A stretch of 64,000 nucleotides of DNA from Knoellia sp. S7-12. Its GTDB lineage: Bacteria > Actinomycetota > Actinomycetes > Actinomycetales > Dermatophilaceae. A model generated the notes under the pieces. That model did no database searches. It was not told where the DNA came from and saw only the letters and a list, made by a program, of their open reading frames with translations. Of the stretch, positions 1,642 to 60,251 are shown piece after piece (the stretch's first letter is position 1; each line of letters opens with the position of its first letter). Location: assembly GCF_040518285.1 (NCBI RefSeq), contig NZ_CP155449.1, forward strand, positions 124,001 to 188,000, in the 5' to 3' direction. Both the position numbers and the translations under genes were made by a program.

Positions 1642-1674
1642 CACGCGGCATACGCGGCGTAGTGGTTTCGGTGA

Positions 1675-2862
1675 CTAGCTGCTCAGGGAAGCCGCGTTCA
1701 CGGGGTACGGGTAGGTCTCTTCGCGATCCTGGAAGGCGAGGATCGCCGGGTTGCGGATCTCGCCGTCCTGGATCTCGACGGCCCGCTCGATCGTCGTCTC
1801 CTTGGCCCACGCGTCAGGACCGGACAGGACCGTGCGCAGGTGCGGCAGCAACGCTTCGCTGTTGACCCACGTCGCCGAGTTCCAGAGATAGGACGGCGTG
1901 TGGTCGACGGCGTAGTAGGTCATGTTGTTGCCGACGGTGAAGGTCGGGTCCTCGAAGCTCGTCGGGCGCGCCCAGCTGAAGCCCATGCCCTCATCGCACG
2001 ACACGTCGACGACGAGACTGCCCGGACGGAACTTGCCGAGATCCTTCTCCTGGAGGAAGGTCCACGGTGACGAGGTGTCCTGCAGCACGCAGTTGACGAC
2101 GATGTCGTTGTCCGCGAGATAGGACGCGAGCGGGATGCGCCCCTCGTTGGTCACGGCACAGGTCTGTGACGGGTCGTCATCGTCATGGTCGAGGTGGACG
2201 ATCTGCACCGAGTGGATCGGCGACGCGACCGCGGCGACCTTGCGGCTCGTGAGCACCCGGACGTCGTCGATGCCCTGCGCACTCAGTGCGGTCACCGCGC
2301 CACGAGCCGTCGCACCGAAGCCGATGACGACCGCTCGCATCCGTCGCCCGTAGGTGCCGGTCGTGCCGGACAGGGCGAGGGCGTGCAGCACCGAGCTGTA
2401 GCCGGCGAGCTCGTTGTTGAGGTGGAACACGTGCAGGAGGAAGCTGCCGTCACGAGCCCAGTGGTTCATGGCCTCGAAGGCGATGAGGGTGAGCTTGCGG
2501 TCGATCGCCTCCTGGGTGAGCGCGGTGTCCTGGACACAGTGCGGCCACCCCCAGACGATCTGCCCGTCGCGCAGCTCCGCAAGGTCCTCGGACTGCACCT
2601 TGGGCTGCAGGATGATGTCGCATTCGGCGATGAGCTCGGCGCGCGTCCGGATCCCACCGAGCTGTCCGGCCAGCGTCTCGTCGGAGACACCGAACGGCAG
2701 GCCGTAGCCCTGCTCGACAAAGATCTGCGCCCGCAGCTCGGGGTCGATCCGGTCGACGTGGTCGGGGTGGATCGGGAGCCGGTGCTCATTCTCCTTGCGG
2801 GAGTGCGCCATCACACCCAGCGTGAGCAGCGAACTGGAGTTGGCCTCAGCGCTTCTTGCCAT
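1675..2862 (-). CDS. N5-(carboxyethyl)ornithine synthase-like / alanine dehydrogenase-fold oxidoreductase
   Basis: A 395-residue NAD(P)-dependent enzyme of the alanine dehydrogenase/PNT superfamily. It resembles actinobacterial proteins annotated N5-(carboxyethyl)ornithine synthase, which reductively join pyruvate to the ornithine side chain. The N-terminal signature AHSRKENEHRLPIHP (residues 19-33) and a nucleotide-binding loop VVIGFGATARG (178-188) are visible. A conserved C-terminal block VVDVSCDEGMGFSWARP is also present. The ATG at 2862 overlaps the preceding small gene by 17 bases and has no obvious Shine-Dalgarno; ATG 2811 is an alternative but would cut close to the signature. Whether it makes carboxyethylornithine or acts on another imine is open. 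Confidence 0.8.
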   Translation of the reverse strand: MARSAEANSSSLLTLGVMAHSRKENEHRLPIHPDHVDRIDPELRAQIFVEQGYGLPFGVSDETLAGQLGGIRTRAELIAECDIILQPKVQSEDLAELRDGQIVWGWPHCVQDTALTQEAIDRKLTLIAFEAMNHWARDGSFLLHVFHLNNELAGYSSVLHALALSGTTGTYGRRMRAVVIGFGATARGAVTALSAQGIDDVRVLTSRKVAAVASPIHSVQIVHLDHDDDDPSQTCAVTNEGRIPLASYLADNDIVVNCVLQDTSSPWTFLQEKDLGKFRPGSLVVDVSCDEGMGFSWARPTSFEDPTFTVGNNMTYYAVDHTPSYLWNSATWVNSEALLPHLRTVLSGPDAWAKETTIERAVEIQDGEIRNPAILAFQDREETYPYPVNAASLSS

Positions 2863-2980
2863 GCAGCGTCGTCTCGATTCCGGTGGCTTCGGCGGCCTTC
2901 GACTTCTTGTCCGCCCGCTTTTCCTTGATGGACTTGCCGGACTTCTTGGTCAACGCGTGGCGTGGTGACTTGTCGGACAT
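2846..2980 (-). CDS. Small, highly basic conserved protein (44 aa)
   Basis: Encodes MSDKSPRHALTKK through HGKKR, a 44-residue Lys-rich protein with no membrane segment. The ATG at 2980 is chosen over a longer upstream start because GAAGGA stands six bases before it. Short Lys-rich proteins of this kind are common, uncharacterised genes in actinobacteria. Its 3' end overlaps the next gene by 17 bases, so the two are probably co-transcribed. Nucleic-acid binding is plausible from charge alone, but nothing else supports a function. Confidence 0.65.
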   Translation of the reverse strand: MSDKSPRHALTKKSGKSIKEKRADKKSKAAEATGIETTLHGKKR

Positions 2981-3073: not shown

Positions 3074-3964
3074 CTAGTAGGCCTGCATCCCCGTGCCCTT
3101 GCGGGTCGTCGCGGTCAGGAACGCGTGCCAGTGCGACTGCGACGTCGTGAGCGAGCCGCCCTTGCCGATCTGCGCGAGCACCTCGTTGGAGTGCTGGATC
3201 GTCTGGTTGCCATAGACCCCGTCGATCCCGGTGCCCTTGCCCCACACGTAGTTGAGCATCGCCTGGATCGAGTTCGTCTGGGTGCCGCTCTTGGACAGCA
3301 CCGACAGGCCCGCACCCGAACGCGAGTTGTCGACGTGGAAGTGGTTGTGGTGAGCGGTGTTGTAGAGGTAGGTCAGCGTGTGCTCGAAGTGCAGGTGCAG
3401 GCTCGCTGCCGCCGCCCAGTACTGGATGCGCACACCGGTCAGCTCCGTGCCCGTCCACGCCTTCCACGTGTCGTAGCGCGCACTGAAGTGGCGGGTCGTC
3501 CCCGTCCAGGCGCTCGCGATGTCGAAGGCGCGACCGTAGTTGTGCAGGGAGACGCAGCCGTCGCCCCGGTCGACGTAGGCGCCGTAGGAGTCGATCCGGT
3601 TCATCACCGGATAGGGCGTGTTCGCGTCCCAGAAGCTCTGCCACACCTTGAGTCGCGAGTGCATCGTCGTGTTGAAGCGGAAGCTCGCTGCCGCACTCGT
3701 CGGCTCGTAGTAGAGCGCGGCGGAGTTGATGGTGTTCTGGTAGGGCATCGTCGTCTCGGTGACACACGCAGCCGCGAGAGCGCCTGCGGCAGAACGGTTT
3801 TCGTCACCTACCGGGCCGGTCCCACGAGGATCTGCGTATGCCGGTGTGCTGGCGATCGCCGCGAACCCGGCGGCCGTGAGCCCACCGAGATTGAGGACGG
3901 CCCGGCGGTTGAGGGGGCTGCGGGTGGCCGAGGGCGCGGGCTGGGGGGTGGACTGCTCGTTCAC
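3074..3964 (-). CDS. Secreted extensin-like / M15-type metallopeptidase fold protein with peptidoglycan-binding-like tail
   Basis: A 296-residue exported protein. A Tat signal is visible (NRRAVLNLGGL, residues 19-29, ending near AYA). The body holds HNYGRAFD (141-148) and HHNHFHVD (205-212), matching the H-x(6)-D and H-x-H zinc ligands of the M15/VanY/extensin-like fold. The C-terminal 60 residues contain IDGVYGNQT, like the core of a PG_binding_1 repeat. Likely role: trimming or binding cell-wall peptides outside the membrane. GTG at 3964 has AGGAG seven bases upstream. A second M15-like protein lies at 47420-48274. Catalytic activity is inferred only from the ligand pattern. Confidence 0.75.
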   Translation of the reverse strand: MNEQSTPQPAPSATRSPLNRRAVLNLGGLTAAGFAAIASTPAYADPRGTGPVGDENRSAAGALAAACVTETTMPYQNTINSAALYYEPTSAAASFRFNTTMHSRLKVWQSFWDANTPYPVMNRIDSYGAYVDRGDGCVSLHNYGRAFDIASAWTGTTRHFSARYDTWKAWTGTELTGVRIQYWAAAASLHLHFEHTLTYLYNTAHHNHFHVDNSRSGAGLSVLSKSGTQTNSIQAMLNYVWGKGTGIDGVYGNQTIQHSNEVLAQIGKGGSLTTSQSHWHAFLTATTRKGTGMQAY

Positions 3965-4102
3965 GTCTGACTCCTGGTGAAGGGTGCTGGGACGGACGAT
4001 TTCAGGCTAGGGGTGCGGCCCAGTTCCTGCCACATATGAGCGTGGGGTCGGCCCGGGATGTGACAAATTCACCTGGCGGAGGTCTTGCTCCGGGCCAATG
4101 CC

Positions 4103-4156
4103 GCACCTACTGCACAGTAAGTGGGGTGATCACCCCACTTACTGTGCAGTAGGTGC
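4103..4156. repeat. 54-bp perfect palindrome (copy 1 of a repeated intergenic element)
   Basis: Two 27-base arms meet at TGATCA with no loop, and every position pairs. It lies between the GntR gene (ends 4208) and the extensin-like gene (starts 3964), both on the minus strand. A diverged second copy sharing the GTGGG..GATCACCCCAC core is at 38377-38427. Probably a terminator or extragenic palindromic repeat. The remaining bases of this 243-bp gap show only weak promoter-like sequence. Confidence 0.8.
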
Positions 4157-4207
4157 TGCGACGTCGCCGGGTGGCCGAGCGAGCGGGCGAGCGGGCGAGA
4201 GGTGCCC

Positions 4208-4858
4208 TCAGGCTGACGCGCGGGGGGTCGTCTGCTCGATGTGGGTGGCGAGGGTGGTTCGCAGCTTTGCCGCCTTGCGCAGCGTCAACAGCGACACGAG
4301 CTCTTCGTGTTCACGCACGAGCCCGAGCATGTGCTGACTGTCGGTCGGCTCACCCAGCCGCCCGAGCCGGACGAAGGCGCCCAGCTGCGCGAGCATCCGG
4401 GACAGGGTCGGCATGCGCGCCACCTCGGCCAATGCCAGGTGGAACTCCTCGTCGAGCCGGAGGAAGGTTTCCGCATCGTCGGCCTCGGCACAGCGCAGCT
4501 GCTTGAGGAGCAGGAGGCCCAGACGGTCGAGGTCGTCCTCATCGCGCAACTCGCAGGCCGCCACTGCTGCGGCTCCCTCGAGGGCGACCCGCAGCGTCGT
4601 GATCTCGCGCCGGTGCTCCGGTGACACGTCGACGACGAGCAGTTGGCGACGCGCCCCGGTCTGCAACAGCCCGTCGCTCTGCAGACGGCGCAGGGCCTCG
4701 CGGACGGGGGTGCGGGACACCGAGTGCTGCTGCGCCAACACCACCTCGTCGAGAGGTGTCCCGGGCGTGAGGGTGCCCGACATGATGTCGTCGAGCACCG
4801 CCAGCCGCACGCGATCGGCCTTGGTCGAAGGCGCGGAGGTCGAAGCCCTGGGGGTCAC
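4208..4858 (-). CDS. GntR family transcriptional regulator (FadR/FCD subgroup)
   Basis: A 216-residue DNA-binding regulator. The first about 75 residues form a GntR winged helix (LDEVVLAQQHSVSRTPVREALRRLQSDGLL is its core, cited in part: SRTPVREALRRLQSDGLL). The rest is a helical FCD ligand-binding domain with the metal-site pattern FHLALAE and a later REHEELVSLL. GTG at 4858 is the start; a longer frame read-through upstream overlaps the VOC gene and is not used. It sits 11 bases after the VOC gene on the same strand, so it probably controls that gene in response to a small organic acid. Confidence 0.85.
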   Translation of the reverse strand: MTPRASTSAPSTKADRVRLAVLDDIMSGTLTPGTPLDEVVLAQQHSVSRTPVREALRRLQSDGLLQTGARRQLLVVDVSPEHRREITTLRVALEGAAAVAACELRDEDDLDRLGLLLLKQLRCAEADDAETFLRLDEEFHLALAEVARMPTLSRMLAQLGAFVRLGRLGEPTDSQHMLGLVREHEELVSLLTLRKAAKLRTTLATHIEQTTPRASA

Positions 4859-4869: not shown

Positions 4870-5292
4870 CTACTTCGCGAAGATCTGTGACTCGTCGGCG
4901 AAGGCCTTGAACTCCATCGCGTTGCCGGCAGGGTCGAGGAAGAACATCGTCCACTGCTCGCCGGGCTGACCCTCGAACCGCAGATAGGGCTCGATCACGA
5001 ACGTGGACCCTGCGGTCTTCATCTTCTCGGACAGTGCGTGGAAGTCGTCGATCGAGAGCACGGCGCCGAAGTGGGGCACCGGCACCTCGTGCGAGTCGAC
5101 GTGGTTGTGGCCGGCCGGGCCGGGGTGGACCGGCACCTCGTGGGTCACGACCTGGTGTCCAAAGAAGTTCCAGTCGATCCACTGCTCGGCCGAGCGACCC
5201 TCGGACAAGCCGAGGATGCCGCCATAGAACGCCCGCGCTGCGGCGATGTCGTCGACGGGGATGGCGAGGTGGAAACACGGGCGAGCGGTCAC
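4870..5292 (-). CDS. VOC (glyoxalase/dioxygenase-fold) protein
   Basis: A 140-residue vicinal-oxygen-chelate protein (CFHLAIPVDDIAAARAFYGG at the N-terminus, WTMFFLDPAGNAMEFKAF near the C-terminus). This matches the paired beta-alpha-beta-beta-beta units of lyase/dioxygenase enzymes. Candidate metal ligands are His in the first strand and Glu in NAMEFK. GTG at 5292 is chosen because GAGGAG lies six bases upstream; a longer ATG version would start before this site. It is co-directional with the GntR gene, which suggests inducible detoxification or catabolism. The substrate is unknown. Confidence 0.8.
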   Translation of the reverse strand: MTARPCFHLAIPVDDIAAARAFYGGILGLSEGRSAEQWIDWNFFGHQVVTHEVPVHPGPAGHNHVDSHEVPVPHFGAVLSIDDFHALSEKMKTAGSTFVIEPYLRFEGQPGEQWTMFFLDPAGNAMEFKAFADESQIFAK

Positions 5293-5382
5293 GGCATACT
5301 CCTCAGTTGTTGTGTGCAAGTGCATCTAATGTATACATAAGTCCCTCGACGAGGCAACCCTGAGGCGCGTAGCGTCGCGATC

Positions 5383-6658: not shown

Positions 6659-7404
6659 CACGACGTCTGCGTGTCCAGCGGCTCGGCCTCGCCCTGATCA
6701 AGGGCACCCGCCACACGGACCGCGACGAGATCGAGCTCGACCCGCATGGCCCCGTCGGCGACCGCACCTTCTGCCTCGTCGACGGGGCCACGCAACGTGT
6801 GCTGCGCACGGTCGAGAACCCGTCCCTGGTCCAGCTCGTCGCCCAGGACCTCGGTGACCGGCTGGCCGTGACGACCCCGAACGGGCACACGACGGAGGCG
6901 ACGACGCAAGATGCCGCGGACGGCATACAGGTCGCTGACTATTGGGGACGAGGCGCGCGAATTCGCCTGCAGGACAGCGAACTCAGCGCGGCCATCTCTC
7001 AGCACCTCGGACGCGAGGTGGTATTGGCGCGTGCAGAGCGCGGTGACGTCGTCTATGCCGACCCGATCTCCATGGTCACCACAGGTGCATTGCACCGCCT
7101 CTCCGAGGCGATCACAGCCAGCGGGTATGCCGGCCCGCCGGCTCTCGATGTCCGCTTCCGGGCCACTGTCACGGTGGATGCAGACGAGGATCCGGCGCCA
7201 GGCACGCGCGTGCAGCTCGGGTCGGCGATCGTGGAGGTGGGCGAGCCGCTGGAGCGCTGCGCCGTGATCGACCTGGATCCAAACACGGGCGAGCGAGTGC
7301 TCCCGAGGCTGCTCGAGCACGTGCGGAGTGATGACGGACTGCTCTTCGGCGTCGGCGCGCGCGTCGTCCGCCCCGGTCGCGTGACTCGGTTGCTCTCTGA
7401 CTGA
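6655..7404 (+). CDS. MOSC domain protein
   Basis: A 249-residue MOSC (molybdenum cofactor sulfurase C-terminal) protein with the N-terminal beta-barrel segment (RTVENPSLVQL) and the core ERCAVIDLDPNTGE, which includes the family's conserved Cys. Related proteins (YiiM, YcbX, mARC) handle sulfur-ligated molybdenum cofactor and reduce N-hydroxylated compounds. GTG at 6655 forms a GTGA overlap with osmC. Pairing with a peroxiredoxin suggests a detoxification role, but the substrate is not known. Confidence 0.8.
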   Translation: MTRRLRVQRLGLALIKGTRHTDRDEIELDPHGPVGDRTFCLVDGATQRVLRTVENPSLVQLVAQDLGDRLAVTTPNGHTTEATTQDAADGIQVADYWGRGARIRLQDSELSAAISQHLGREVVLARAERGDVVYADPISMVTTGALHRLSEAITASGYAGPPALDVRFRATVTVDADEDPAPGTRVQLGSAIVEVGEPLERCAVIDLDPNTGERVLPRLLEHVRSDDGLLFGVGARVVRPGRVTRLLSD

Positions 7405-10032: not shown

Positions 10033-10980
10033 TCAGTCGCGGGTGGGCAGGCGCTCGTCGAGCCACGCGAGCACGTCGGTCGTGACCTCGTCGCGGATCG
10101 TGTCGTTGAGCAGCTCGTGGCGGCCGTCCGGATAGAGCGTCGTGGTGACGTCGGTGACGCCGGCCGTGCGGTACTTGTCGGCAACCTCGCGAGGACCCTT
10201 GCCGTTGTCGCCGACGGGGTCGAGCTCTCCGGACATGACGAGGATGGGCAGGTCCGGGGGCACGGCGGCAAACGCGCCGCTGCTGTTGACCTGTTGCACT
10301 CCGCCGAGGAGATCGGTGAAGAAGGCAGCAGAGAACACGTTGCCGCACAGCGGGTCTGCGACGTACTTGTCAACCTCGGCCTCGTCACGTGACAGCCAGT
10401 CGAAAGCGGTCCGGTTCGGTTTGAACTTCGCGTTGTACTGACCGAACGTGAGCTTGTCCATGAGCCCGGACGGATGGCGCCGGCCGCGAAGCCGCGCCTG
10501 CACCCCTGACAGCCGCTTGCCGACGGACGCGACGGGACCCGGGTCGCCGGCGGTGCTGCTGAGGATGAGCGCCGCGAGGCGGGCGCCGTGCTGGGCGGCA
10601 TACGCACGGCTGAGGAACGAGCCCATGCTGTGTCCGAAGAGCACGAGCGGGACCCCGGAGTGCTCGGCCTGCGCGAACTCGCTCACCGAGCTGAGGTCCG
10701 AGACGACTGTCGCGAACCCGTCGCGGTCGGCGAAGTAGCCGTGATCGGCAGGCGAGGCCGTCTGGCCGTGGCCCCGGTGGTCGTTTGCGTAGACGGCGTA
10801 GCCAGCACCCGTCAACGCCTCGGCAAACCGCTCGTAGCGCGCCGCGTGCTCGGCCATCCCGTGCGCGATCTGCACGATGCCTCGTGCGGGCTTCTGGGCA
10901 ACAGGCCCATCGGGCAGCCAGCGGTAGGTGTGCAGCGACGTGCCATCTGCGGCACTGACGGCAAGGGTGCTCGACTCCAT
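10033..10980 (-). CDS. Alpha/beta hydrolase, monoacylglycerol lipase/lysophospholipase-like
   Basis: A 315-residue serine hydrolase of the Hydrolase_4 type. The nucleophile elbow is GHSMGS (about residues 114-119), the oxyanion region HGMAEHAARY is at 40-49, and the likely acid and base are Asp in SGELDPVG and His in PDGRHELLND. Such enzymes cleave monoacylglycerols or lysophospholipids in the cytoplasm. AGGAG lies seven bases before ATG 10980. No signal peptide is visible. Chain-length preference cannot be told. Confidence 0.88.
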   Translation of the reverse strand: MESSTLAVSAADGTSLHTYRWLPDGPVAQKPARGIVQIAHGMAEHAARYERFAEALTGAGYAVYANDHRGHGQTASPADHGYFADRDGFATVVSDLSSVSEFAQAEHSGVPLVLFGHSMGSFLSRAYAAQHGARLAALILSSTAGDPGPVASVGKRLSGVQARLRGRRHPSGLMDKLTFGQYNAKFKPNRTAFDWLSRDEAEVDKYVADPLCGNVFSAAFFTDLLGGVQQVNSSGAFAAVPPDLPILVMSGELDPVGDNGKGPREVADKYRTAGVTDVTTTLYPDGRHELLNDTIRDEVTTDVLAWLDERLPTRD

Positions 10981-24920: not shown

Positions 24921-24925
24921 GCCGT

Positions 24926-25552: not shown

Positions 25553-25598
25553 GTCTCTTCTTCGGAGTCGCAGCGGGCAACGGATGGGTCGGCGGCCA

Positions 25599-35313: not shown

Positions 35314-35364
35314 AAAAGTCAACGTAGACCCGCACACCGACAGCCGAAAGGGCCTCGGACACAC

Positions 35365-35406: not shown

Positions 35407-35433
35407 GCAGTGGTTCAGTCAGTCAGGCGAGCG

Positions 35434-44592: not shown

Positions 44593-44638
44593 GTATGCCG
44601 TGGGGCACCGTTCTCGTGAACGGTGCCCCACGGCATAC
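44593..44638. terminator. 21-bp stem hairpin between convergent genes, ends in the octamer
   Basis: Arms 44593-44613 and 44618-44638 pair perfectly with loop TCGT. The arm ends are GTATGCCG and CGGCATAC. It serves both the rhodanese gene (ends 44571) and the M20 gene (ends 44658). Confidence 0.85.
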
Positions 44639-47264: not shown

Positions 47265-47419
47265 GCGAGTTGGACGCACCAAGGGCCGCTGCGGTTCCGC
47301 ACGCGAAGCCGCAGCGCAACCGCAGTGGTTTCGCAGCGGCATACCGGACTCTCTGGATTGCGGGCACACGCCCGAGACCGGCGGGACCCACCGTCTCGCC
47401 CTGACGAAGGAGAGCCTTG

Positions 47420-48291: not shown

Positions 48292-48336
48292 GGGCGACAC
48301 GGCATACGCCGTTATTCGGATGTATGCCGTTCGCCC
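48292..48336 (+). terminator. Bulged hairpin terminator carrying the octamer on both arms
   Basis: Arms 48292-48307 and 48322-48336 pair except for one bulged C. CGGCATAC is at 48300-48307 and GTATGCCG at 48322-48329. It follows the I36-M15 gene by 18 bases and precedes the AAA promoter. Confidence 0.7.
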
Positions 48337-48360: not shown

Positions 48361-49578
48361 GTGGACCCCATCCGGAACCCCTATGCCCCAGGCGCTGGCC
48401 AGCGCCCGCCCGAGCTCGCCGGTCGTGACGAACAGCTCGACGCCTTCGAGGTCGTGCTCGAACGCATATCGCGGGGGCGGCCCGAGCGCTCGATCGTCCT
48501 CACCGGGCTGCGCGGCGTCGGCAAGACGGTGCTGCTGAATGCGTTGCGGTCAACGGCTGTTCGCGCCAAGTGGGGGACGGGCAAGCTTGAGGCGCGTCCC
48601 GACCAGTCGCTGCGCCGGCCGTTGTCGTCGGCCCTGCATCAGGCGGTCCGCGAGCTGGGCCACCCCAGTGACGATGAGGTGCAGCACGTGCTCGGCGTGA
48701 TCAAGGCGTTCGCCCAACGTGATGCACCGGCCGGCACGAAGCTGCGGGAGAAGTGGAACCCCGGCATCGATGCGCCCGCCGCCTCTGGACGCGCGGACTC
48801 GGGCGACATCGAGATCGACCTGGTCGAGCTGCTCACCGACGTCGGTGGGCTGGCGTCCGACACCGGTCGTGGGATCGCCGTCTTCATCGACGAGATGCAG
48901 GACCTCGGGCCGGATGACGTGTCGGCGCTGTGCGCTGCGTGCCACGAGATCTCCCAGTCGGGACTGCCCGTGATCGTCGTGGGTGCGGGGCTGCCGCACC
49001 TGCCGGCGGTGCTGTCGGCGTCAAAGTCATACTCCGAGAGGCTCTTTCGCTACTCGCGCATTGACCGACTGCCCCGTGCGGCGGCCGACGCGGCACTGGT
49101 CCTGCCCGCGGAGGAGGAGGGCGCGGCATACGAGCAGGAAGCTCTGGACGCGATGTATGCCGCGACCGGCGGCTACCCCTACTTCATCCAGGCCTACGGC
49201 AAGGCGGCGTGGGACCGCGCGCCGAAGTCGCCGGTGACGGTGGAGGACGTGCGGGTCGCGGCACCCGAGGCCGAGTCCGAGCTGGCGGTCGGGTTCTTCG
49301 GGTCGCGGTTCGAGCGGGCGACGCCGGGGGAGCGGGAGTATCTGCGCGCCATGGCCGACGTCGCTGTCGCCATCAGTGAAGGTGGTGAGGAGGAGCTTGA
49401 CGAGATCGAGTCCGTGCCCACCTCAGACGTGGCCACCCACCTCAGCCGCAAGCCCCAATCCCTCTCTCCTGCAAGGGATGCACTGCTCAAGAAGGGCCTG
49501 ATCTATTCGGGAGAGCGGGGGCGCATCGCGTTCACCGTCCCGCACTTCGGCCGCTACCTGCGGGAGCAGACCGGGTGA
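48361..49578 (+). CDS. AAA ATPase (STAND/MalT-like ATP-binding protein)
   Basis: A 405-residue P-loop ATPase. Walker A is GLRGVGKT (about 50-57) and Walker B is IAVFIDEMQDL (about 172-182). A sensor segment PVIVVGAGLPHLP follows. The C-terminal winged helix ends LLKKGLIYSGERGRIAFTVP. Related proteins are actinobacterial orphan ATP-binding proteins with helicase-loader-like cores. TACGGT (48349-48354) six bases before GTG 48361 suggests a leaderless message. It overlaps the next gene by four bases. A decayed copy of its 3' end lies at 50937-51030. Confidence 0.83.
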   Translation: MDPIRNPYAPGAGQRPPELAGRDEQLDAFEVVLERISRGRPERSIVLTGLRGVGKTVLLNALRSTAVRAKWGTGKLEARPDQSLRRPLSSALHQAVRELGHPSDDEVQHVLGVIKAFAQRDAPAGTKLREKWNPGIDAPAASGRADSGDIEIDLVELLTDVGGLASDTGRGIAVFIDEMQDLGPDDVSALCAACHEISQSGLPVIVVGAGLPHLPAVLSASKSYSERLFRYSRIDRLPRAAADAALVLPAEEEGAAYEQEALDAMYAATGGYPYFIQAYGKAAWDRAPKSPVTVEDVRVAAPEAESELAVGFFGSRFERATPGEREYLRAMADVAVAISEGGEEELDEIESVPTSDVATHLSRKPQSLSPARDALLKKGLIYSGERGRIAFTVPHFGRYLREQTG

Positions 49579-51226: not shown

Positions 51227-51952
51227 CTATCGGCTGGTGGTGAGGTCCGGGTGGCTGCTGGGGTCGGTGACCACGGCGTGCGCGACATCGCTGAGGCGGT
51301 GGTTCTCGCGCCGTGAGTACTGCCGCAACATGACGAACGCGGCGTCGACATCGATGCCATGCATGCGAGCCAGGGCACCCTTGGCCTGTTCAATGACGAT
51401 GCGACTGTTGAGCGCGCTCTGGAGCTGCTCCGTGAGCACCTCCGAGTTGCGGATGGCGCGCTCCTGAAGGAGCCCGATGGTCGCGATGTCGGCCAAGGCC
51501 TGGACGATCCGGACGTCCGTGGGTTCGAGTTGCCCGGACTCATGGCTGAACAGGTTCAACGCGCCGATGACCCTGTGGCGGTGTCGCAACGGGAAGGCGT
51601 GGACGGACTGGAACCCTGCGGCGATGGCACGCGGTGCGAAGAGCGGCCAACGCTCGTTTGCGGCGTTCAAGTCTGTGTTGATCACGGGCTCGCCCGTGCG
51701 GAAGCAGTCCAGGCACGGGCCCTCCTGGTACTGCAGCTGGAAGAGCTCCAACAACTTGACCGACTCCGCCGAGGAGGCCATGTATTGCAGCTTGCCGTGA
51801 GGATCTGCGAGCAGGAGACCGGCGGAGGCCGAGGCGCTCACGTCGGCAGTGTGCGCCGTCAGGGTCTCGAGGAACTCGATGATGTCAAAGTCGTCGACGA
51901 GAGTGTCAGCCAACTCGACAAAGACCTCCGCCAACTGTTCCACAACGATCAT
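51227..51952 (-). CDS. GAF-ANTAR regulator
   Basis: A 241-residue antiterminator-type regulator. The GAF sensor includes QYQEGPCLDCFRTGEPV and VHAFPLRHRHRVIGALNLF. The ANTAR domain covers about residues 165-225 (LQSALNSRIVIEQAKGALAR, with LSDVAHAVV). It is a close relative of the protein at 56402-57118 (both start with LAEVFVxLADxLVDDFD). ATG 51952 has GGAGG nine bases upstream. It is 49 bases downstream of another GAF-ANTAR gene on the same strand. Confidence 0.88.
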   Translation of the reverse strand: MIVVEQLAEVFVELADTLVDDFDIIEFLETLTAHTADVSASASAGLLLADPHGKLQYMASSAESVKLLELFQLQYQEGPCLDCFRTGEPVINTDLNAANERWPLFAPRAIAAGFQSVHAFPLRHRHRVIGALNLFSHESGQLEPTDVRIVQALADIATIGLLQERAIRNSEVLTEQLQSALNSRIVIEQAKGALARMHGIDVDAAFVMLRQYSRRENHRLSDVAHAVVTDPSSHPDLTTSR

Positions 51953-52001
51953 GCTGGGCCGCCTCCCCATCTGGGCTGTGGGCAGACATGAATCGCGGTA
52001 T

Positions 52002-52736
52002 TCATGGAGTGTCCCTGTCGAGTCGAATTCTACCGCTCACGATGTCTTTGGCAACATCACTGATGTAGCGATCTTGGGCGTAGGCATAGCCGCGGATTCG
52101 GGCCATGGCCTCATCGATGCTGACCCCGAGATCCACCATCACCATGCCCTGTGCCTGGTAGACCTCAACGCGGTAGGCCAGGACGTCGTCAAGGTCCATG
52201 GCCGGGTGGCTTTGCTCGGAGCCGTTCTGTCCGTCCACCAGCACATCCATCGCCAGGTCGGCGAACGTGAACGCTTGGTTGAGGGCCTCCTCGCTCAACG
52301 GACCGGGCTCGTCACGGTAGACGTCCAGTGCCCCGGCACGTGCGGCACCGACCTGCAACGGAAAGGCAAAGACGGCTCGCACACCGTGCTCGTGCGCGGC
52401 CGGCGCATAGCCGGGCCAGCGTGGTAGCCCGTGGGCAAGCAGGTCAGCGACCAGCACTGGGCGGCGGGAGGCGTAGGCGTCGATGCAGGGGCCCTCCCCG
52501 TGGGTGAACTGCAACTCCTCCAGCGCCCTGGATGCTGGGCCGGACACCGCAATGGTGCCGCCCTGGTTGACGTCGGTCAGCAGGCTCAGTCCGACGCCGG
52601 TCGCAGGCAACGCTCGGGACAGGGCTGAGCACAGGCGCTCCAGCCGACCGATAGCGCCAGGAGCCGCATCCGCCGAACGTGGCTCCTCGTCGATGAGCTG
52701 GTTGGCCCTGGCGAATCTGCCCTGTGGGTCATCCAT
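52002..52736 (-). CDS. GAF-ANTAR regulator
   Basis: A 244-residue regulator. The GAF part has GLSLLTDVNQGGTIAVSG, THGEGPCIDAYASRRPV and VFAFPLQVGAARAGALDVYR. The C-terminal ANTAR domain is slightly atypical (VEVYQAQGMVMVDLGVSIDE, ARIRGYAYAQDRYISDVAKDIV), with the conserved A-x-GM core. ATG 52736 overlaps a 13-residue upstream ORF that has a better Shine-Dalgarno; an in-frame GTG at 52778 is the other candidate start. It is first in a tandem with the gene at 51227. Confidence 0.82.
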   Translation of the reverse strand: MDDPQGRFARANQLIDEEPRSADAAPGAIGRLERLCSALSRALPATGVGLSLLTDVNQGGTIAVSGPASRALEELQFTHGEGPCIDAYASRRPVLVADLLAHGLPRWPGYAPAAHEHGVRAVFAFPLQVGAARAGALDVYRDEPGPLSEEALNQAFTFADLAMDVLVDGQNGSEQSHPAMDLDDVLAYRVEVYQAQGMVMVDLGVSIDEAMARIRGYAYAQDRYISDVAKDIVSGRIRLDRDTP

Positions 52737-52770
52737 GCCAACCGCCGGTGGTGGGCGCGGGGTTTTGCAT
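52729..52770 (-). CDS. Candidate 13-residue leader ORF upstream of GAF-ANTAR
   Basis: ATG 52770 has AAGGGTG six bases upstream and encodes MQNPAPTTGGWHG. Its TGA lies five bases downstream of the regulator's ATG, in a different frame (ATGGATGA), so ribosomes could pass from one to the other. No other evidence. Confidence 0.35.
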   Translation of the reverse strand: MQNPAPTTGGWHG

Positions 52771-52948
52771 GGTTTCACCCTTCGTCAGCCAAGGGCTGAG
52801 TTTGCAGTCGCAGTCAGCGGACTGGCTTGGGTTCCATGGTTCCGCGCGTCTGACCCTAGTGGTTGCGGAGACTGGGGGGCGTGAGCGCTGCCGGTCGTCT
52901 CGCCGATTGTCCTGACGAGTGCGTCGACCAACGTGGGAATGGTGCATT

Positions 52949-53632
52949 TCAGCGTCCGAGACCAACGCGGTCAACCTTGCGGTGGAAGCGCATCCCGGCC
53001 ACCCCGCCGAGCAGGGCGCCGGCCAGGCTCGCAATCGCAACGACGACCAGGGCGATGATGCCGCCGTTGGTCAGGGCGCCTCCATCAACGGGGATCCTTG
53101 GGAAGCTGTTGAGATCGCTCAGCACGTCGAACCTGCTGCCGGCCACGGCAGCAACACCAGCCACCCCAAGGGCGATCACCGCCGCCCACAGCCAGACGGC
53201 AAGACCCTGTTGGAGGCCGTTGAAGCGCGACATCCTGCCGGCGACATAGCCACCGCAGAAGTAGGCCACAAAGAGGATGACGAGCAGGATGATGCCTCCG
53301 ATGAGGCCGACCGTCCCGGGATCGTTGGCGGCACCGGCCACCGCAGTCTCCGGGTCGGCCCCGGTGCTGACGCCGACGGCCGTGCCCGCCGCGACGACCA
53401 TGGCGGTCAGGAGCACGGCGACGCCGGTGGCGGTGAGCCATCCAAAGAACGCGGAGCCGACCTTGATGCCGCCATAGGCCTCCTGCTCCCGCGCCAGAAT
53501 CTCGCCACGGTCACGCTCCACCGAGTTCGGCGCGTATGCCGCGTACGAGCGGCTTCCGTCGTCGTACTCGTTCCGTCCTGGGCCGGTGTCACCTCGATCC
53601 GAGTCGGCGGTGGAATCCCTCTGTTGATTCAT
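52949..53632 (-). CDS. Integral membrane protein of unknown function
   Basis: A 227-residue protein: a polar, Asp/Arg-rich N-terminus of about 60 residues, then four hydrophobic helices (FFGWLTATGVAVLLTAMVVAAG; IGGIILLVILFVAYFCGG; VWLWAAVIALGVAGVAAV; GIIALVVVAIASLAGALLGG, all in the same order) and a short basic tail. Gly-Gly patches such as CGGYVAGRMSRF suggest helix packing. AAGGAG precedes ATG 53632 by six bases. It is divergent from whiB, and a GGGTAA element upstream suggests stress-sigma control. Confidence 0.75.
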   Translation of the reverse strand: MNQQRDSTADSDRGDTGPGRNEYDDGSRSYAAYAPNSVERDRGEILAREQEAYGGIKVGSAFFGWLTATGVAVLLTAMVVAAGTAVGVSTGADPETAVAGAANDPGTVGLIGGIILLVILFVAYFCGGYVAGRMSRFNGLQQGLAVWLWAAVIALGVAGVAAVAGSRFDVLSDLNSFPRIPVDGGALTNGGIIALVVVAIASLAGALLGGVAGMRFHRKVDRVGLGR

Positions 53633-53713
53633 GACATCTCCTTGCCAGAATGGTGGTGTCGTCTCCGTGCACTTACCCCAGAACCAGAGTGTCGAATCAT
53701 GCGTCGGTGCGAC

Positions 53714-53739
53714 GTTTGGCCGGGCCCTTATTGGGGAAT
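53714..53739 (+). promoter_or_regulatory. SigB/SigF-like promoter for whiB
   Basis: GTTT (53714-53717) and GGGAAT (53734-53739) are 16 bases apart, close to the known actinobacterial general-stress consensus GTTT-N(13-17)-GGGTAT. Transcription would begin about 30 bases before whiB. Confidence 0.5.
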
Positions 53740-53778
53740 AGGACAAGGGTGGATTCCCGGCCCTTGGAGGCGAAGACG

Positions 53779-54066
53779 ATGCCAGGCGAAAGACCGCTAC
53801 CCCGCCCCCTTCTTGATGTGTACGAATGGCAGGACAGGGGGGCCTGCAGGGGCGAGGCCGCCATTCTGTTCTTCGAGCCCGAGCTCGGTCATCGCGCCCG
53901 CGGCAAGGAGCGGGAAGCCCTGGCCAAGAGCATCTGTCGGCGATGCCCGGTGATGGCTCAGTGCCGCGCCCACGGTCTTTTGGTTGAGGACCACGGGATC
54001 TGGGGCGGCTTGACGGCTCGTGAGCGAGTGGCCATGCGCGGCAACGGCCAACGGGACATTGCCTGA
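53779..54066 (+). CDS. WhiB family iron-sulfur transcription factor
   Basis: A 95-residue redox-sensing regulator. The four cluster Cys are in RGACRG and CRRCPVMAQC, followed by the GIWGGLT turn and a basic C-terminal stretch (ARERVAMRGN) that binds DNA together with the sigma factor. ATG 53779 is chosen because GGAGG lies about eight bases upstream; the frame extends further but reads the promoter. Position next to ANTAR and sigma genes suggests a stress or development role. Confidence 0.92.
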   Translation: MPGERPLPRPLLDVYEWQDRGACRGEAAILFFEPELGHRARGKEREALAKSICRRCPVMAQCRAHGLLVEDHGIWGGLTARERVAMRGNGQRDIA

Positions 54067-54107
54067 CCCTCGGTGAGCCTGGCGTGGGGAAGCGCCGGCT
54101 GGGTTGG

Positions 54108-54908
54108 CTAACGGTTCCTCTGAGGTTTGGAGGCGGAGCGGGCCGCTTGTTCGTCGTACGCGTCCAACGTGGCGTCGGCGTGCTTGCCCCGATCGATGGT
54201 GGCCACGAGTTCGTCGGCGAGATCGCGCAACTTGCGATTGCGTCGCATACTGACCGTGCGAAGCAGGTCGAAGGCTTCCTGCTGGGTGATGTGGTGTCGC
54301 TCCATCAAGATGCCCTGGGCCCGGCCTATGACCGCGCGAGACTCCAGACCAACGCGCAACTGGTCGGCAAGGTCCCCCGCGGTTCGCTCGGCGGCCTCGA
54401 TTCGCGCCTGCGCGGTCAAGGACATTGCGGCGTGACCGGTGGCCGTGAGCACCGTGTCGATGGCGGCATCGGTGAAGGCGCCGGGATGCGATGCATAGAG
54501 CGTGAGCGAACCGTTTGTGTGTCGCTCGCTCCACTGGGGTAGAAGGAGCAGTGCGGGGGCGAACACAGCCAGACCCACCGAAAGGACGGAGCCCACTCCC
54601 AGCCGGTCGGCGGTGGATGCCAGCGCCGGTCCGCCGCGAGTGCTCTTGAGATCCGACATGGTGGCGGTGGACCAACCACCCTTGGCCGCGACGTCACATG
54701 CGGGACCGCAGCGCTGGCTGAACTGGATGGCGTCAAGCTGTGCCGCCACCGCGTCGCTGGACCACAACGAGCGCGGCCGGCTACCCCGTGTCACCATGGT
54801 CAGGGAGGCTCTGGCAAAGGTGGGGCACACCTGCAGCGCCACACGAGCCAGCTCCACGAGAGCCGACCACACGGGATCGTCAAGGGTCGCCGCCTCGTGC
54901 GCCGACAT
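54108..54908 (-). CDS. ANTAR-domain regulator with degenerate GAF-like sensor
   Basis: A 266-residue regulator. The sensor part has a GAF-like pattern (FSQRCGPACDVAAKGGWSTA, SVGLAVFAPALLLLP). The ANTAR domain near the C-terminus reads LRVGLESRAVIGRAQGILME, then DLLRTVSMRRNRKLRDLADELV. A Ser/Asp-rich tail follows. The start is uncertain: ATG 54908 has no clear Shine-Dalgarno, and an open frame continues upstream to 55052. It is convergent with whiB. Confidence 0.8.
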   Translation of the reverse strand: MSAHEAATLDDPVWSALVELARVALQVCPTFARASLTMVTRGSRPRSLWSSDAVAAQLDAIQFSQRCGPACDVAAKGGWSTATMSDLKSTRGGPALASTADRLGVGSVLSVGLAVFAPALLLLPQWSERHTNGSLTLYASHPGAFTDAAIDTVLTATGHAAMSLTAQARIEAAERTAGDLADQLRVGLESRAVIGRAQGILMERHHITQQEAFDLLRTVSMRRNRKLRDLADELVATIDRGKHADATLDAYDEQAARSASKPQRNR

Positions 54909-55021
54909 CTCGGTGCAGGCGACGCCTGGCAGAAGTCGAACGGGTCGATCGGGCAAGCCATCATGTGGTGGCGCAGCCCGCGATCCCTGAAGGTGGGGAC
55001 GATCTCGCCCGGTGTGGATGG

Positions 55022-55312
55022 TCATGCCAACCTGCCCCAGGTCACACTGCACGGAACCGCACGGCGATCCAGCTCGGACACGATGCGCTGCTTCGCGTCG
55101 TTCAACGCAATGAGGTCCGGATTGATCCTCGCTCGGTGGCCATCACGCTGAAGTGCTGGAGTCGCGCGCATGGCTTCCTCGATCAGTGCGAGATCCCCGA
55201 CCAGCTCCGGCACAGAGGTGCAGAGAGGATTCTCATCGGGGGCGATCACCCGGGAGGGCACGAGCCGACGGGACAATCGGAAGTGAGTGGAGCCAACTGG
55301 AGGTGCTGACAT
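55022..55312 (-). CDS. Hypothetical protein (96 aa)
   Basis: Unrecognised 96-residue protein from ATG 55312, with GGAAGG a few bases upstream. It has a basic first third (FRLSRRLVPSRVI) and an amphipathic helical middle (ELVGDLALIEEAMRATPAL; LIALNDAKQRIVSELDRR). It ends 114 bases before the ANTAR gene on the same strand and may be co-transcribed. Confidence 0.5.
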   Translation of the reverse strand: MSAPPVGSTHFRLSRRLVPSRVIAPDENPLCTSVPELVGDLALIEEAMRATPALQRDGHRARINPDLIALNDAKQRIVSELDRRAVPCSVTWGRLA

Positions 55313-57362: not shown

Positions 57363-58190
57363 ATGGCCGGCACGACCACTCGCCCGTCGCCTCCCGCCCC
57401 TGAAGATTCCCGCACAGGGGGCTGCAGTTGGCGCCACAACCCCGAGCATGATCGCGCGGAGTTCCTGCTCGCCACAGCGCAAACGTGCGGTGACGAGGCC
57501 ACCCGGCAGCGACTTCGCGACGATGCCGTGGTGTTGACGCTGGATCTTGCAGACGGGGTGGCTCGTCGCTACCGCGGTCGGGGAGTGGAGGGCGACGACC
57601 TCATCCAGGTCGGGCGGCTGGCGCTTGTCAAGGCCGCCCAGGGCTACCGGCACGACCGGGGAAGCGGGTTCCCGGCATACGCGATTCCCACCATCTCGGG
57701 AGAGATCAAGCGCTACTTCCGCGACCACGGCTGGGTCGTCCGTCCGCCGAGGCGGATCCAGGAGCTGCGCGCCGAGATCGCACGGGAAGAGGGCCACCTC
57801 CGACAGATCCTCTTGCGCGAGCCGACCGACCACGAGCTAGCGGATGCACTCGACGTCGAGCTGGCGGATGTCCGTGAGGCGAGGCGGTGTTCGTTGAGCT
57901 ACAACGCCCTCTCTCTGGACGTGCCGGGCGCAAGCGAGGCGGCGGGGGCCTACCTCCTCACGGTGGCGCACGTCGATGAGTTGGTAGCGGATCGCGACGC
58001 CCTAGGTCGGGCGGTCGCCGGGCTCACCCCGCGAGAACAGCTGATCGTCAGGCTGCGGTTCGTCGACGGGCTGACCCAGCTCGAGATCGGCGAGTCCATC
58101 GGACTCAGTCAGATGCAGGTTTCTCGGCTGCTCAACGTCATCCTCGCTCGCCTTCGCGACGCGCTGGAGGATTTGCCCATGACCGCTTAG
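57363..58190 (+). CDS. SigB/SigF/SigG-type RNA polymerase sigma factor
   Basis: A 275-residue alternative sigma factor. Region 2 contains GDDLIQVGRLALVKAAQGY and FPAYAIPTISGEIKRYFRD. Region 3 has REPTDHELADAL, and region 4 has LTPREQLIVRLRFVDGLTQL with the helix-turn-helix IGESIGLSQMQVSRLL. These are the hallmarks of general-stress sigma factors in actinobacteria. GAGAGG precedes ATG 57363 by seven bases. No anti-sigma or anti-anti-sigma gene adjoins. Its 3' end overlaps the convergent GCS2 gene by 53 bases. Confidence 0.9.
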   Translation: MAGTTTRPSPPAPEDSRTGGCSWRHNPEHDRAEFLLATAQTCGDEATRQRLRDDAVVLTLDLADGVARRYRGRGVEGDDLIQVGRLALVKAAQGYRHDRGSGFPAYAIPTISGEIKRYFRDHGWVVRPPRRIQELRAEIAREEGHLRQILLREPTDHELADALDVELADVREARRCSLSYNALSLDVPGASEAAGAYLLTVAHVDELVADRDALGRAVAGLTPREQLIVRLRFVDGLTQLEIGESIGLSQMQVSRLLNVILARLRDALEDLPMTA

Positions 58191-59268
58191 ATGTCGGACC
58201 TCGATCCGTCGGTGGTCCGACGACGAACGCCTGCAATCCCGCTCTCGACGTGGGGTCCACAAGTCGCCGCTGCCGCTGTGCGAAGCCGCCATCGCGCACC
58301 AAGCGGTCAATGGTGTCACGCACGCGCGCGAGGTCGCCGTTGGCTTCGAGGGCATCGCTGATCGCAGCAAGCAGGGATCCGACCACCCTCTCGGCGGGAG
58401 CAAGCTGCCCGCTCGCAGGGTCGACAAGTTGCTCGGTGAGGCCGTGTCGGGCGGCGCGCCATGCCGCTGCTCGCAGTGCCAGGGTGGACACGTCCACGGG
58501 CGCCGTGGCGCGCGCGATCGCGGTCTCCACGAGTGCTCGACAGAGCGCAGCCACGGCGACCGCAATGCCCGGCTCCGGGCACACGTCAGTCACGCGGATC
58601 TCCACTGTGGGAAAGGTCGCCGACAGTCTGGCGTCGTAGTAGAGCATCCCCTTGTCGAAGGCCCCACCGGCGTCGATGACCTGCTGGGACGCCCGGCGAT
58701 ACGTGTCAACATCTCCCCAGGCCTGAGTGGGTCCGGCTGTCGGCAGCTGGGACAACACGACTGATCGAAAGCTTGCGTAGCCCGTGTCGCGGCCCTGCCA
58801 GTAGGGCGAGTTCGCCGCCAGCGCGGTGAGGACTGGAAGCCACGCACGGATGCGGTCAAGCACGACCACACCTTCCTCCGGAGAGTCGATCGCCACGTGC
58901 ACGTGTGTGCCGCAGGTGAGTTGGTGGTCGGCGAGCTGTCCGAACTCGTGACCGATCCGGGCGAAGCGTTCCGAGACGGTCGGGGTCGGTGCATGGACAC
59001 CCGGCCACGTTCCGGACGCGATGACGACCGCGCCCAGCGATCCGGCCAGATCAGCGACCCGGCGTCGGAGTAGCGCGAGATCAGCTTCGAGCTCGTCCAT
59101 CGTCGAGCAGACTCGCGATGCGATCTCCACCTGCTCCTGCTTGAACTCGGTGGCAAGCGCAGGGTCGTCGGCTCGGGCCACCAGCATGGGCCCGCGCGCG
59201 ACAGGTTCCCCCGTGAGCGCATCGGCCAGGATGAACTCCTCCTCGACGCCGAAGGTGCGGCCGGTCAC
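58138..59268 (-). CDS. GCS2-family carboxylate-amine ligase (YbdK/EgtA-like)
   Basis: A 376-residue ATP-dependent ligase of the glutamate-cysteine ligase type 2 family. It begins FGVEEEFILADALTGEP, with the Mg-binding GVEEE. The central segment LTCGTHVHVAI and the later TVEIRVTDVCPEPG are the other ligand blocks. The family joins the side-chain or alpha carboxyl of Glu-like acids to an amine. ATG 59268 overlaps the stop of the gene upstream (ATGA). It is last in a four-gene operon that suggests a specialised product rather than glutathione. Confidence 0.88.
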   Translation of the reverse strand: MTGRTFGVEEEFILADALTGEPVARGPMLVARADDPALATEFKQEQVEIASRVCSTMDELEADLALLRRRVADLAGSLGAVVIASGTWPGVHAPTPTVSERFARIGHEFGQLADHQLTCGTHVHVAIDSPEEGVVVLDRIRAWLPVLTALAANSPYWQGRDTGYASFRSVVLSQLPTAGPTQAWGDVDTYRRASQQVIDAGGAFDKGMLYYDARLSATFPTVEIRVTDVCPEPGIAVAVAALCRALVETAIARATAPVDVSTLALRAAAWRAARHGLTEQLVDPASGQLAPAERVVGSLLAAISDALEANGDLARVRDTIDRLVRDGGFAQRQRRLVDPTSRAGLQAFVVGPPTDRGPTSKRSWANPPARREGERG

Positions 59269-60251
59269 CGCAGGCTTGACCGACCGGTCGACCAGGCCCG
59301 CCCCACTTCGTCGGCGAACCGTCCGCCGAGCAGCTGGCTGGCCTGGATTCCGAACACGAGGTCAGGGGCCAGCTCGGGCTCCTGCGCCAGCAGCGGCGCG
59401 ATGACCTCGCGTCGCAGGATCTGTTCGTGAACGGCGTCCGCCTCGACGTGCTCTGCGTAGTAGTGCTCCGTGGCCGGACCGCAACGCAGGCGCTGCGCAG
59501 CCCGGACAAGTCGAGCCGAGCCCGGAGACGACGTCAGCTCGATGACGGCGAACTGTCCCACCGACGCTGCTCGCAGCTCCCGGCGCAGCCCGCACAGGGA
59601 CATGAAGTTCACCTCGGCGAGGACGGATCCAGAGATCAGGTCGACGAGTTCGCCGTAGCCCGACGCCAGTCCGAGTTCCTGCATCATCTCGGCATAGAGC
59701 TCCGAGTGCATGTCGCTCGCGCGGCCAGCGCCGTACTCGTCGTGTTCGACGGCGACCAGGCCGGCCTTGGCGCGCCCGTCCATGCGGGACACCACCAGCA
59801 CTTGGGGGTCAGCCTCTTTGAGGTGGTAGGCCGACCGGTGTGTCACGTACTCCGCGAACTGCTCACGCGTGCCTTCCCTCGCGAGGTGGTGCGAGATGCC
59901 GCGCTCGCCAACAGGCTCGGACAACAGCCCAGCGATCTCGGCCTCGACGTCGTCACCTCCGGCGACATCCAGGCGAAGCTGCTCGAGGAAGATCGCCTCG
60001 AGCTCGAGTCGGAAGCCGACAAGGTCGAGGTCCCACTCCATCGAGTCGGGCACCCCGTCGAAGCCCCGATAGTGCAGCTCGTAGCAGACGTACAACGCCA
60101 GCTGGAGGTCGTCGCCATACGGGTCGCTGCTGGGAGGTGACGAGAGCGGCATACGTGTGCGTCCGGCGCAGTGGTCGATCACGGCCTGGGAGATCGGTCC
60201 TCGCCCCGAAGGCAGGTGCGGAGCGAGGCGCCGGGTGTTCGTGGCGGTCAC
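59265..60251 (-). CDS. Heme-oxygenase-like iron-containing redox enzyme (HDO family)
   Basis: A 328-residue member of the iron-containing redox enzyme/Haem_oxygenas_2 group. Candidate diiron ligands are in AYHLKEADP, VEHDEYGAG followed by a His in ASDMHSEL, and YYAEHVEADAVHEQ. Related heme-oxygenase-like diiron enzymes are known to cleave C-C or N-containing substrates in natural-product routes. GTG 60251 overlaps the CDGSH gene stop (GTGA); longer starts are excluded by this coupling. Substrate unknown. Confidence 0.83.
   Translation of the reverse strand: MTATNTRRLAPHLPSGRGPISQAVIDHCAGRTRMPLSSPPSSDPYGDDLQLALYVCYELHYRGFDGVPDSMEWDLDLVGFRLELEAIFLEQLRLDVAGGDDVEAEIAGLLSEPVGERGISHHLAREGTREQFAEYVTHRSAYHLKEADPQVLVVSRMDGRAKAGLVAVEHDEYGAGRASDMHSELYAEMMQELGLASGYGELVDLISGSVLAEVNFMSLCGLRRELRAASVGQFAVIELTSSPGSARLVRAAQRLRCGPATEHYYAEHVEADAVHEQILRREVIAPLLAQEPELAPDLVFGIQASQLLGGRFADEVGRAWSTGRSSLR

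Follow-up and report, generated by a model that had tools for sequence, protein, structure and literature searches.

The octamer GTATGCCG is strongly over-represented in the genome of Knoellia sp. S7-12, and we propose, with a probability of roughly 0.6, that it is a DNA uptake sequence (DUS) read by the natural-transformation apparatus of these actinobacteria. The word was noticed in a stretch of 64,000 nucleotides (contig NZ_CP155449.1, positions 124,001–188,000; hereafter, the window), which belongs to a genome of 4.16 Mb in one contig (G000). It is an ungapped, asymmetric octamer that differs from its own reverse complement. The window contains 40 copies, i.e. 18 on the plus strand (GTATGCCG) and 22 on the minus strand (CGGCATAC), compared with 2.4, 1.3, and 1.9 copies expected on both strands under Markov models of orders 0, 2, and 3, respectively. 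Among the 8-mers with at least eight occurrences, it is the most over-represented in the window at orders 2 and 3. The order-6 expectation is 36.7 copies, and this test is uninformative because the word is saturated, every GTATGCC being followed by G. A first-pass annotation of the window had reported the same total and strand counts, approximately two expected copies, and the invariable final G; all of these were reproduced upon recounting (40 of 40 heptamers), as were its ten example positions (10 of 10), whereas its first site, placed at 1647, actually starts at 1646. A genome-wide count, which it had suggested as a check, was also in favour of over-representation: G000 contains 2,805 copies (1,406 and 1,399 on the two strands), compared with 79 (33 and 46) of the same word read backwards (the reversed-word control). 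The numbers of copies per 5 kb are Poisson-like, with a mean of 3.02 and a variance of 2.88 (n = 100).

This abundance is not a product of coding constraint. The coding analyses covered 504 kb of G000 containing 304 copies (locus L186, which overlaps L037, was omitted), and genes were called with a self-made caller that covers 79% of the bases; some copies classed as noncoding may sit in missed genes. Coding copies numbered 204, whereas 40 rounds of within-gene synonymous codon shuffling yielded 23.1 ± 4.5 copies (maximum, 32), so that the codon-aware test, likewise suggested in the first-pass annotation, was in favour of selection. The observed and shuffled counts in the six frame and orientation classes were 6 and 0.2, 19 and 4.4, 88 and 11.9, 9 and 0.55, 65 and 4.6, and 17 and 1.3, respectively, and all classes are enriched. 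The claim that the word occurs in all reading frames therefore holds for the 504-kb sample, in which all six classes are represented, but not for the window, where the coding sites occupy only frames 1 and 2 (in both orientations). Under these gene calls, the density is 0.96 per kb in noncoding DNA and 0.51 in coding DNA. Flank preferences in the sample are weak: relative to the word start, A is preferred at −8 and −9 and is nearly missing at +8, and T occupies +18 at 119 of 303 sites against a background of 16%. It is hardly credible, then, that the abundance of the word is a by-product of codon or dipeptide bias or of a mobile repeat. Although the Tyr-Ala and Ala-Tyr classes, two of the six, contain 153 of the 204 coding copies, synonymous shuffling retains just 23 of the 204 and every frame class is enriched; the word is denser outside genes than within them, and its flanks are both less conserved than the word itself and weak in base preference.

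The copies are also well conserved between genomes. In the sister species of Knoellia represented by G006 (73 kb aligned at 84% identity), 56 of 61 copies (92%) are intact, compared with 31% (1,767 of 5,631) of octamers of the same composition and 36% (42 of 117) of octamers located 10 bases to either side. In G002, which a 3-kb exact match to a named contig identifies as Knoellia remsis, 17 of 20 copies are intact (25 kb at 79% identity), compared with 23% of same-composition and 25% of flanking octamers. Between different genera that use GTATGCCG (six pairs with 75–79% identity), 26 of 52 copies are intact, compared with 14–24% of same-composition octamers. The earlier suggestion of selection on the DNA itself is well supported by the 8.8-fold codon-aware excess, by the 92 versus 31% of intact sites in the sister species, and by the restriction to one family and the dialects described below.

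NCBI places Knoellia in the family Intrasporangiaceae of the phylum Actinomycetota. All nine Knoellia genomes are rich in GTATGCCG (1,971–3,277 copies). Among the other genera of the family, 28 of 51 are rich, with 939–4,724 copies and reversed controls of 54–454 (the lowest ratio, 2.5, is that of G023), and the remaining 23 are poor, with 7–293 copies. No rich genome was found among 38 genomes from other families of the same order (maximum, 167 copies, with a control of 184), or among the 392 non-family genomes of a phylum-wide scan (maximum, 386 copies in a 7.5-Mb genome, with a control of 176). The scan comprised 396 genomes, including four of the family (three of them rich), and four of the 392 others are also in the order-level set; in all, GTATGCCG richness was found in 0 of 426 distinct genomes outside the family. 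The densest genome outside the family is G367 (161 copies in 1.8 Mb; control, 30), whose excess is mild and whose density is approximately one-eighth of that of G000. At the level of single loci of 14–22 kb, copy-rich examples are found in Knoellia remsis (11 copies), Phycicoccus elongatus (22), Intrasporangium oryzae (10), Humibacillus xanthopallidus (13), Terrabacter sp. Root85 (12), and Ornithinimicrobium cavernae (16), and no copies are present in the loci of Dermacoccus abyssi, Intrasporangium flavum, an uncultured Phycicoccus, and Janibacter indicus (the last being 12 kb). Phage TJE1 of Tetrasphaera contains two copies in 49 kb, as does its reversed control, which is weak evidence given a GC content of 0.58. 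Over 20 stretches of G000, copy number correlates with GC content (r = 0.58), and the two stretches of lowest GC, with accessory-looking genes, hold three and five copies; a depletion of the word in horizontally transferred DNA is only suggested by these data.

Several genomes of the family use a one-base variant of the word, which we call a dialect. Genome-wide counts of GGATGCCG and GTATGCGG were made for 43 genomes, and mixed words were sought in a sample of 42 genomes represented by 8–60 kb each (400 kb for G000). GGATGCCG is present in 3,816 and 3,949 copies in G024 and G033, respectively, which represent two sister genera, compared with 260–1,336 in the other 41 genomes, and GTATGCGG is present in 1,204 copies in G027, compared with 8–459 in the other 42. 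Mixed usage was also detected: G020 contains GAATGCCG alongside GTATGCCG (24 and 14 copies in 35 kb), and G011 and G034 contain GTATGACG and GTATGGCG alongside GTATGCCG, in small samples. A clear dialect was thus identified in three of the 23 GTATGCCG-poor genera, and none was clear in the others with sequence at hand. In a ComEC tree, a quick version built from a single competence protein, G024 and G033 are paired (support 90, below the mark of 95 for this measure) and nested among users of GTATGCCG, which make up the three remaining members of their clade; GTATGCCG occurs in basal and derived branches alike. The most parsimonious history is one of an ancestral word, lost several times and changed in dialect in some cases. 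A replacement of one dialect by another site by site was considered and not adopted: at 15 aligned GTATGCCG sites from six partly overlapping genome pairs, the dialect genome reads GGATGCCG at four and still GTATGCCG at two.

Three further observations concern variant words. G009, the sister of Knoellia in the ComEC tree, contains 29 copies of GTATGCCG and 1,336 of GGATGCCG, as against 260–1,027 of the latter in the remaining genomes without a dialect, which may indicate a dialect that is weak or in decay. In G055, G030, and G047, GTACGCCG was weighed as a candidate dialect and rejected, being also common in loci of Kribbella, Marmoricola, and Hamadaea outside the family; it is frequent in several actinobacteria within and outside the family, including loci L113, L131, L141, and L145. 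In G010 (C17, 129291–130273), GTATGCGG occurs 17 times on one strand, every 60–61 bases, in an arrangement resembling a CRISPR or other direct-repeat array.

The arrangement of the copies shows no replichore polarity: for the 304 sampled sites of G000, the co-oriented fraction was 0.444–0.556 across all assumed origins, which lends no support to chromosome organisation, a role named in the first-pass annotation, by way of polar motifs, and sets the word apart from polar motifs of the KOPS/FtsK type with their strong strand skew by replichore. At short range, on the other hand, the two orientations behave differently. With the expectation derived from sites placed uniformly, regardless of genes, opposite-strand pairs with starts 8–60 bp apart are approximately threefold over-represented among 881 sites (45 vs. 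15.8 expected), whereas same-strand pairs are too few, with 24 observed and 54.0 expected at 60–250 bp, 34 and 70.2 at 250–500 bp, 41 and 69.7 at 500–750 bp, 55 and 69.1 at 750–1000 bp, and 108 and 136.4 at 1000–1500 bp. Beyond 1500 bp, the same-strand ratio is near 1, and opposite-strand pairs are not depleted overall. Same-strand pairs make up 115 of 347 pairs (0.33) at 60–1000 bp, compared with a mean of 0.543 (sd 0.065) for 152 frequent octamers, which include GTATGCCG and one octamer that overlaps it with a shift, these two giving the lowest values. Adjacent copies tend to occupy alternate strands: the two lie on the same strand in 101 of 281 cases for G000, in 105 of 305 for the sister species (400 kb), in 91 of 243 for a set of 16 further genomes, and in 30 of 79 for GGATGCCG. 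The sets from G000 and G006 share some orthologous DNA, so they are not entirely independent of each other, and the 16-genome set includes Knoellia remsis and excludes the mixed-dialect genomes G011, G034, G020, and G054. The numbers of same- and opposite-strand pairs are 16 and 40 where both copies lie in one gene and 36 and 66 for the others. GGATGCCG alone (85 sites) exhibits the same trend on a small scale, with 10 same-strand pairs at 60–750 bp, compared with 19.7 expected. Copies in the same orientation within approximately 1 kb thus seem redundant, and those in opposite orientation do not; since the repulsion is confined to the same strand, each copy probably works in one direction or on a single strand. 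Selection by a directional or strand-specific reader would be expected to produce such spacing.

Several of the opposite-strand pairs constitute perfect stem-loops, and the GGATGCCG genomes hold stem-loops built from their own word. Three inverted pairs of the window (at 35.4, 44.6, and 48.3 kb) had previously been described as terminators whose arms both end in the word. All three fold strongly, but none is among the sites called as U-tract terminator-like, which leaves the terminator label unsupported.

The hosts of the word encode a predicted DNA-uptake apparatus, comprising genes for ComEC, ComEA, and Tad proteins. ComEC and secretion ATPases were surveyed in 51 of the 60 family genomes (leaving out four of the genus and five that are incomplete), and a ComEC gene is present in 50 of the 51. 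The com locus of G000 contains a canonical ComEA gene with SLBB and helix-hairpin-helix domains, and tad-1 genes are also present in this genome. The tad-1 and tad-2 loci are widespread in the family; tadA and tadB were found in all 29 tad-1 loci and adjoining tadE and tadF in 25. In Micrococcus luteus, transformation requires both tad loci (PMC4322843) as well as comEA/comEC (PMC8467076), according to the consulted parts of these papers, and related genes (comEA–comEC and two tad-like loci) are present in the word-bearing family. A search for plasmids carrying tadA gave no match.

If the proposed reading is correct, a machinery of Tad/Flp pilus, ComEA, and ComEC would recognize GTATGCCG on extracellular DNA as a short self-label, leading to the preferential uptake of DNA from kin. 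Transformation and homologous recombination would then spread and repair the copies, and thousands of exact copies could therefore persist in coding and noncoding DNA. A changed preference of the reader might impose a new one-base dialect genome-wide, and lost specificity would leave the copies to decay. Each orientation may be dedicated to one strand or one side, e.g. by determining which strand of the fragment, or which of its sides, is threaded in. The proposal implies that these organisms would be transformable and that the word would raise uptake. A more specific form of it, i.e. an independently evolved, directional uptake code with dialects in a Gram-positive actinobacterial family, read via an apparatus of the Tad/Flp type, is put forward tentatively, at somewhat less than even odds; a directional uptake word has no counterpart in the consulted parts of the descriptions of uptake sequences.

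The comparison with the DUS of the Neisseriaceae, which are read by the minor pilin ComP, is central to this proposal. In the consulted parts of PMC3630211, DUS are described as present in 943–5,918 copies and eight dialects, with two dialects in one genome, with inverted pairs, and with five genomes of the family lacking them. The word studied here resembles them in its thousands of exact copies, inverted stem-loop pairs, one-base dialects, genomes with two dialects, and word-free relatives, and its presence on both strands, lack of polarity, and coding copies in all frames also match uptake sequences. It differs in being an unrelated word, in residing in monoderm actinobacteria with Tad/Flp genes, and in the same-strand-only repulsion; neither GTATGCCG nor the named dialects contain CTG on either strand, the core of the neisserial DUS as given in the same parts of PMC3630211. 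The uptake signal sequence of the Pasteurellaceae (Haemophilus influenzae) is likewise an unrelated word, and the flank preferences of GTATGCCG are only weak. An uptake word with dialects is therefore of a known kind, whereas novelty would lie in the lineage, the word itself, the apparatus, and the rule of orientation. Among the matches listed in the open-licence literature (titles and abstract openings), none concerned uptake sequences in Gram-positive bacteria, and a term search of the main text of three Micrococcus luteus papers (PMC4322843, PMC8467076, and PMC12849477) did not find 'uptake sequence'. HIP1 of cyanobacteria is also an abundant octamer, but it is palindromic, unlike GTATGCCG.

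A number of results weigh against an uptake function. No gene of the com, tad-1, or tad-2 loci tracks the word, all of them occurring with and without GTATGCCG (40 com loci, 29 tad-1 loci, 11 tad-2 loci, and the 51 genomes surveyed for ComEC and secretion ATPases), and the architecture of ComEA, recovered in 38 of the 40 com loci, does not track it either; because none separates word-bearing from word-free genomes, the reader could not be identified among these genes. The Flp frame of the tad-2 locus in the window strain itself looks interrupted. Orientation is described as having no effect on uptake in H. influenzae in the consulted part of PMC1939737, unlike the orientation-specific repulsion seen here. 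In G000, words that differ by one base from GTATGCCG show no general enrichment, unlike the situation reported for Neisseria in the part of PMC3630211 consulted. Among the matches listed, no open-licence paper contained both 'natural transformation' and 'Intrasporangiaceae'. Finally, GGATGCCG copies are intact between G024 and G033 (79% identity) at only four of 20 sites, compared with 20% of same-composition octamers; for the pair of mixed genomes, G011 and G034, GTATGCCG is intact at four of 13 sites (control, 19%) and GTATGACG at three of 10 (22%). Since the GGATGCCG copies are no better conserved than expected by chance, most of them must postdate the split of the two genomes. The copies are thus firmly kept within the genus, exceed the chance level of conservation between genera that use GTATGCCG, and are subject to turnover in dialect lineages; a high copy number alongside high turnover suggests an active drive more than sites fixed long ago, although this is no proof.

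The main rival to the uptake reading is a recombination signal similar to Chi, in which a helicase-nuclease of the AdnAB, AddAB, or RecBCD type would read one strand during break repair, and the word would switch the nuclease to recombination, with each orientation serving one direction of approach and the same-strand spacing arising in consequence. We regard this as unlikely, although recombination, one of the roles suggested in the first-pass annotation, is retained as an alternative. Like Chi, GTATGCCG is an over-represented, conserved, and possibly directional asymmetric octamer; its excess in coding DNA and strong conservation between Knoellia species would suit such a signal, and repulsion between same-strand copies up to approximately 1 kb would be natural for a directional reader. 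These points are offset by the lack of replication polarity, leading-strand polarization being among the properties used for detecting Chi in the part of PMC8022716 consulted, and by the patchy distribution within the family, where many sister genera have neither the word nor a detected dialect, which is hard to reconcile with a general repair signal. The stem-loop pairs also count against it; we know of no such pairs described as a feature of Chi.

Lower still is the probability that the word is the site of an abundant chromosome-binding protein involved in nucleoid organization, segregation, or repair and multiplied by selection unrelated to uptake, which we consider improbable. The genome-wide spread, Poisson-like counts in 5-kb intervals, and strong conservation within the genus would suit such a site; against it stand the lack of polarity, the high density in certain genera beside the absence from close sisters like G009, and the whole-genome dialects with site turnover between sister genera. 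A methylation or restriction-modification word enriched as a self mark is very improbable: lineage dialects could follow the specificity of a methylase, yet the word is an ungapped asymmetric octamer, and its enrichment is unlike the usual behaviour of restriction sites, which are generally avoided rather than enriched. The DNA uptake sequence, a role not named in the first-pass annotation, fits the observations best.

If the uptake reading is true, the word would represent a third, independent case of uptake sequences, in high-GC Gram-positive bacteria, such sequences being known from two Gram-negative families in the literature covered here. The several dialects would provide a natural experiment for finding the reader through the comparison of sister genera with different dialects, the widespread and mostly untested actinobacterial com and tad genes would be in active use, and a practical route to the transformation of Knoellia, Intrasporangium, Phycicoccus, and Tetrasphaera would become available. 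Should the word turn out to be a recombination signal, it would resemble Chi without being polar, and we know of no description of such a word.

The positions of the copies in the window are as follows (strand in parentheses). In the first 25 kb, they lie at 1646–1653 (−, noncoding), 3836–3843 (+), 5292–5299 (−), 6921–6928 (−) and 7125–7132 (+) in a MOSC-domain gene, 10596–10603 (−) in an alpha/beta hydrolase gene, 14101–14108 (+, noncoding), 15787–15794 (−) in a class II aldolase gene, 16276–16283 (+), 18819–18826 (−), 18935–18942 (+), 19495–19502 (−) in an ABC permease gene, 21211–21218 (−), and 24071–24078 (+) and 24487–24494 (−) in a DUF5107 gene. Of the genes named in the first-pass annotation, the MOSC gene was confirmed, whereas the frame taken for NagA (18406–19341) has no Pfam family at 1e-5. 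The copy-free gap reported at 24.5–31.7 kb is real: it extends for 7.2 kb (24495–31726) between the sites at 24,487 and 31,727 and contains genes including those for a hydrolase, an enoyl-CoA hydratase, TauE, and TrkH.

Beyond the gap, copies are located at 31727–31734 (+) and 32711–32718 (−) in an ATP-dependent DNA ligase gene. The first stem-loop (35364–35407) has the word at both arm ends, at 35365–35372 (+, left arm) and 35399–35406 (−, right arm), and the 76-nt fold has an energy of −44.4 kcal/mol (z = −9.1). It is followed by copies at 37216–37223 (−) in a PhoX gene, 38001–38008 (+) in a glyoxalase-like gene, 38518–38525 (−), 38975–38982 (+), 39292–39299 (−), 41860–41867 (−), where no gene was called, 42116–42123 (+), and 42749–42756 (+) in a PhoD-like gene. 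The second stem-loop (44593–44638) consists of 21 contiguous pairs with the word at both arm ends, at 44593–44600 (+, left arm) and 44631–44638 (−, right arm), and its 76-nt fold has an energy of −54.6 kcal/mol (z = −8.2). Copies at 46784–46791 (−) and 47337–47344 (−) and two in an inhibitor I36-like gene, at 47437–47444 (+) and 48112–48119 (+), precede the third stem-loop (48292–48336; 56-nt fold, −33.0 kcal/mol, z = −6.3), in which the word lies in both arms, at 48300–48307 (−, left arm) and 48322–48329 (+, right arm). The remaining copies are found at 49124–49131 (−) and 49155–49162 (+) in an AAA ATPase gene, 53534–53541 (+), 57673–57680 (−), and 60147–60154 (−) in a haem-oxygenase-like gene. 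Scans of the window with Rfam (gathering threshold) and for tRNA genes gave no matches.

Some features of the tad loci and of the window are recorded here as side observations. Four tad-1 loci have no tadE or tadF adjoining tadA–tadB, namely those of G033 (L191), G027 (L193), G055 (L210), and G034 (at a contig end); with regard to the dialect genomes, the two genes were thus not found beside tadA–tadB in G033 and G027 but are present in G024, which is a lead only. Downstream of tadB in the tad-1 locus of G033 (L191, approximately 3600–4725) is a 375-aa frame of PDWQRQLFQK-like repeats. The short tad-2 Flp pilin frame of G000 (L176, approximately 13724–14215; C1, approximately 680.7–681.2 kb) diverges from its relatives about halfway and is whole in G006 and G002; directly upstream of it in G000, a TetR-regulator-like frame and two small multidrug-resistance-like frames were recognized by eye. 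In the window itself, three ANTAR-domain proteins, two of which also contain GAF domains, are clustered at 51227–55052.

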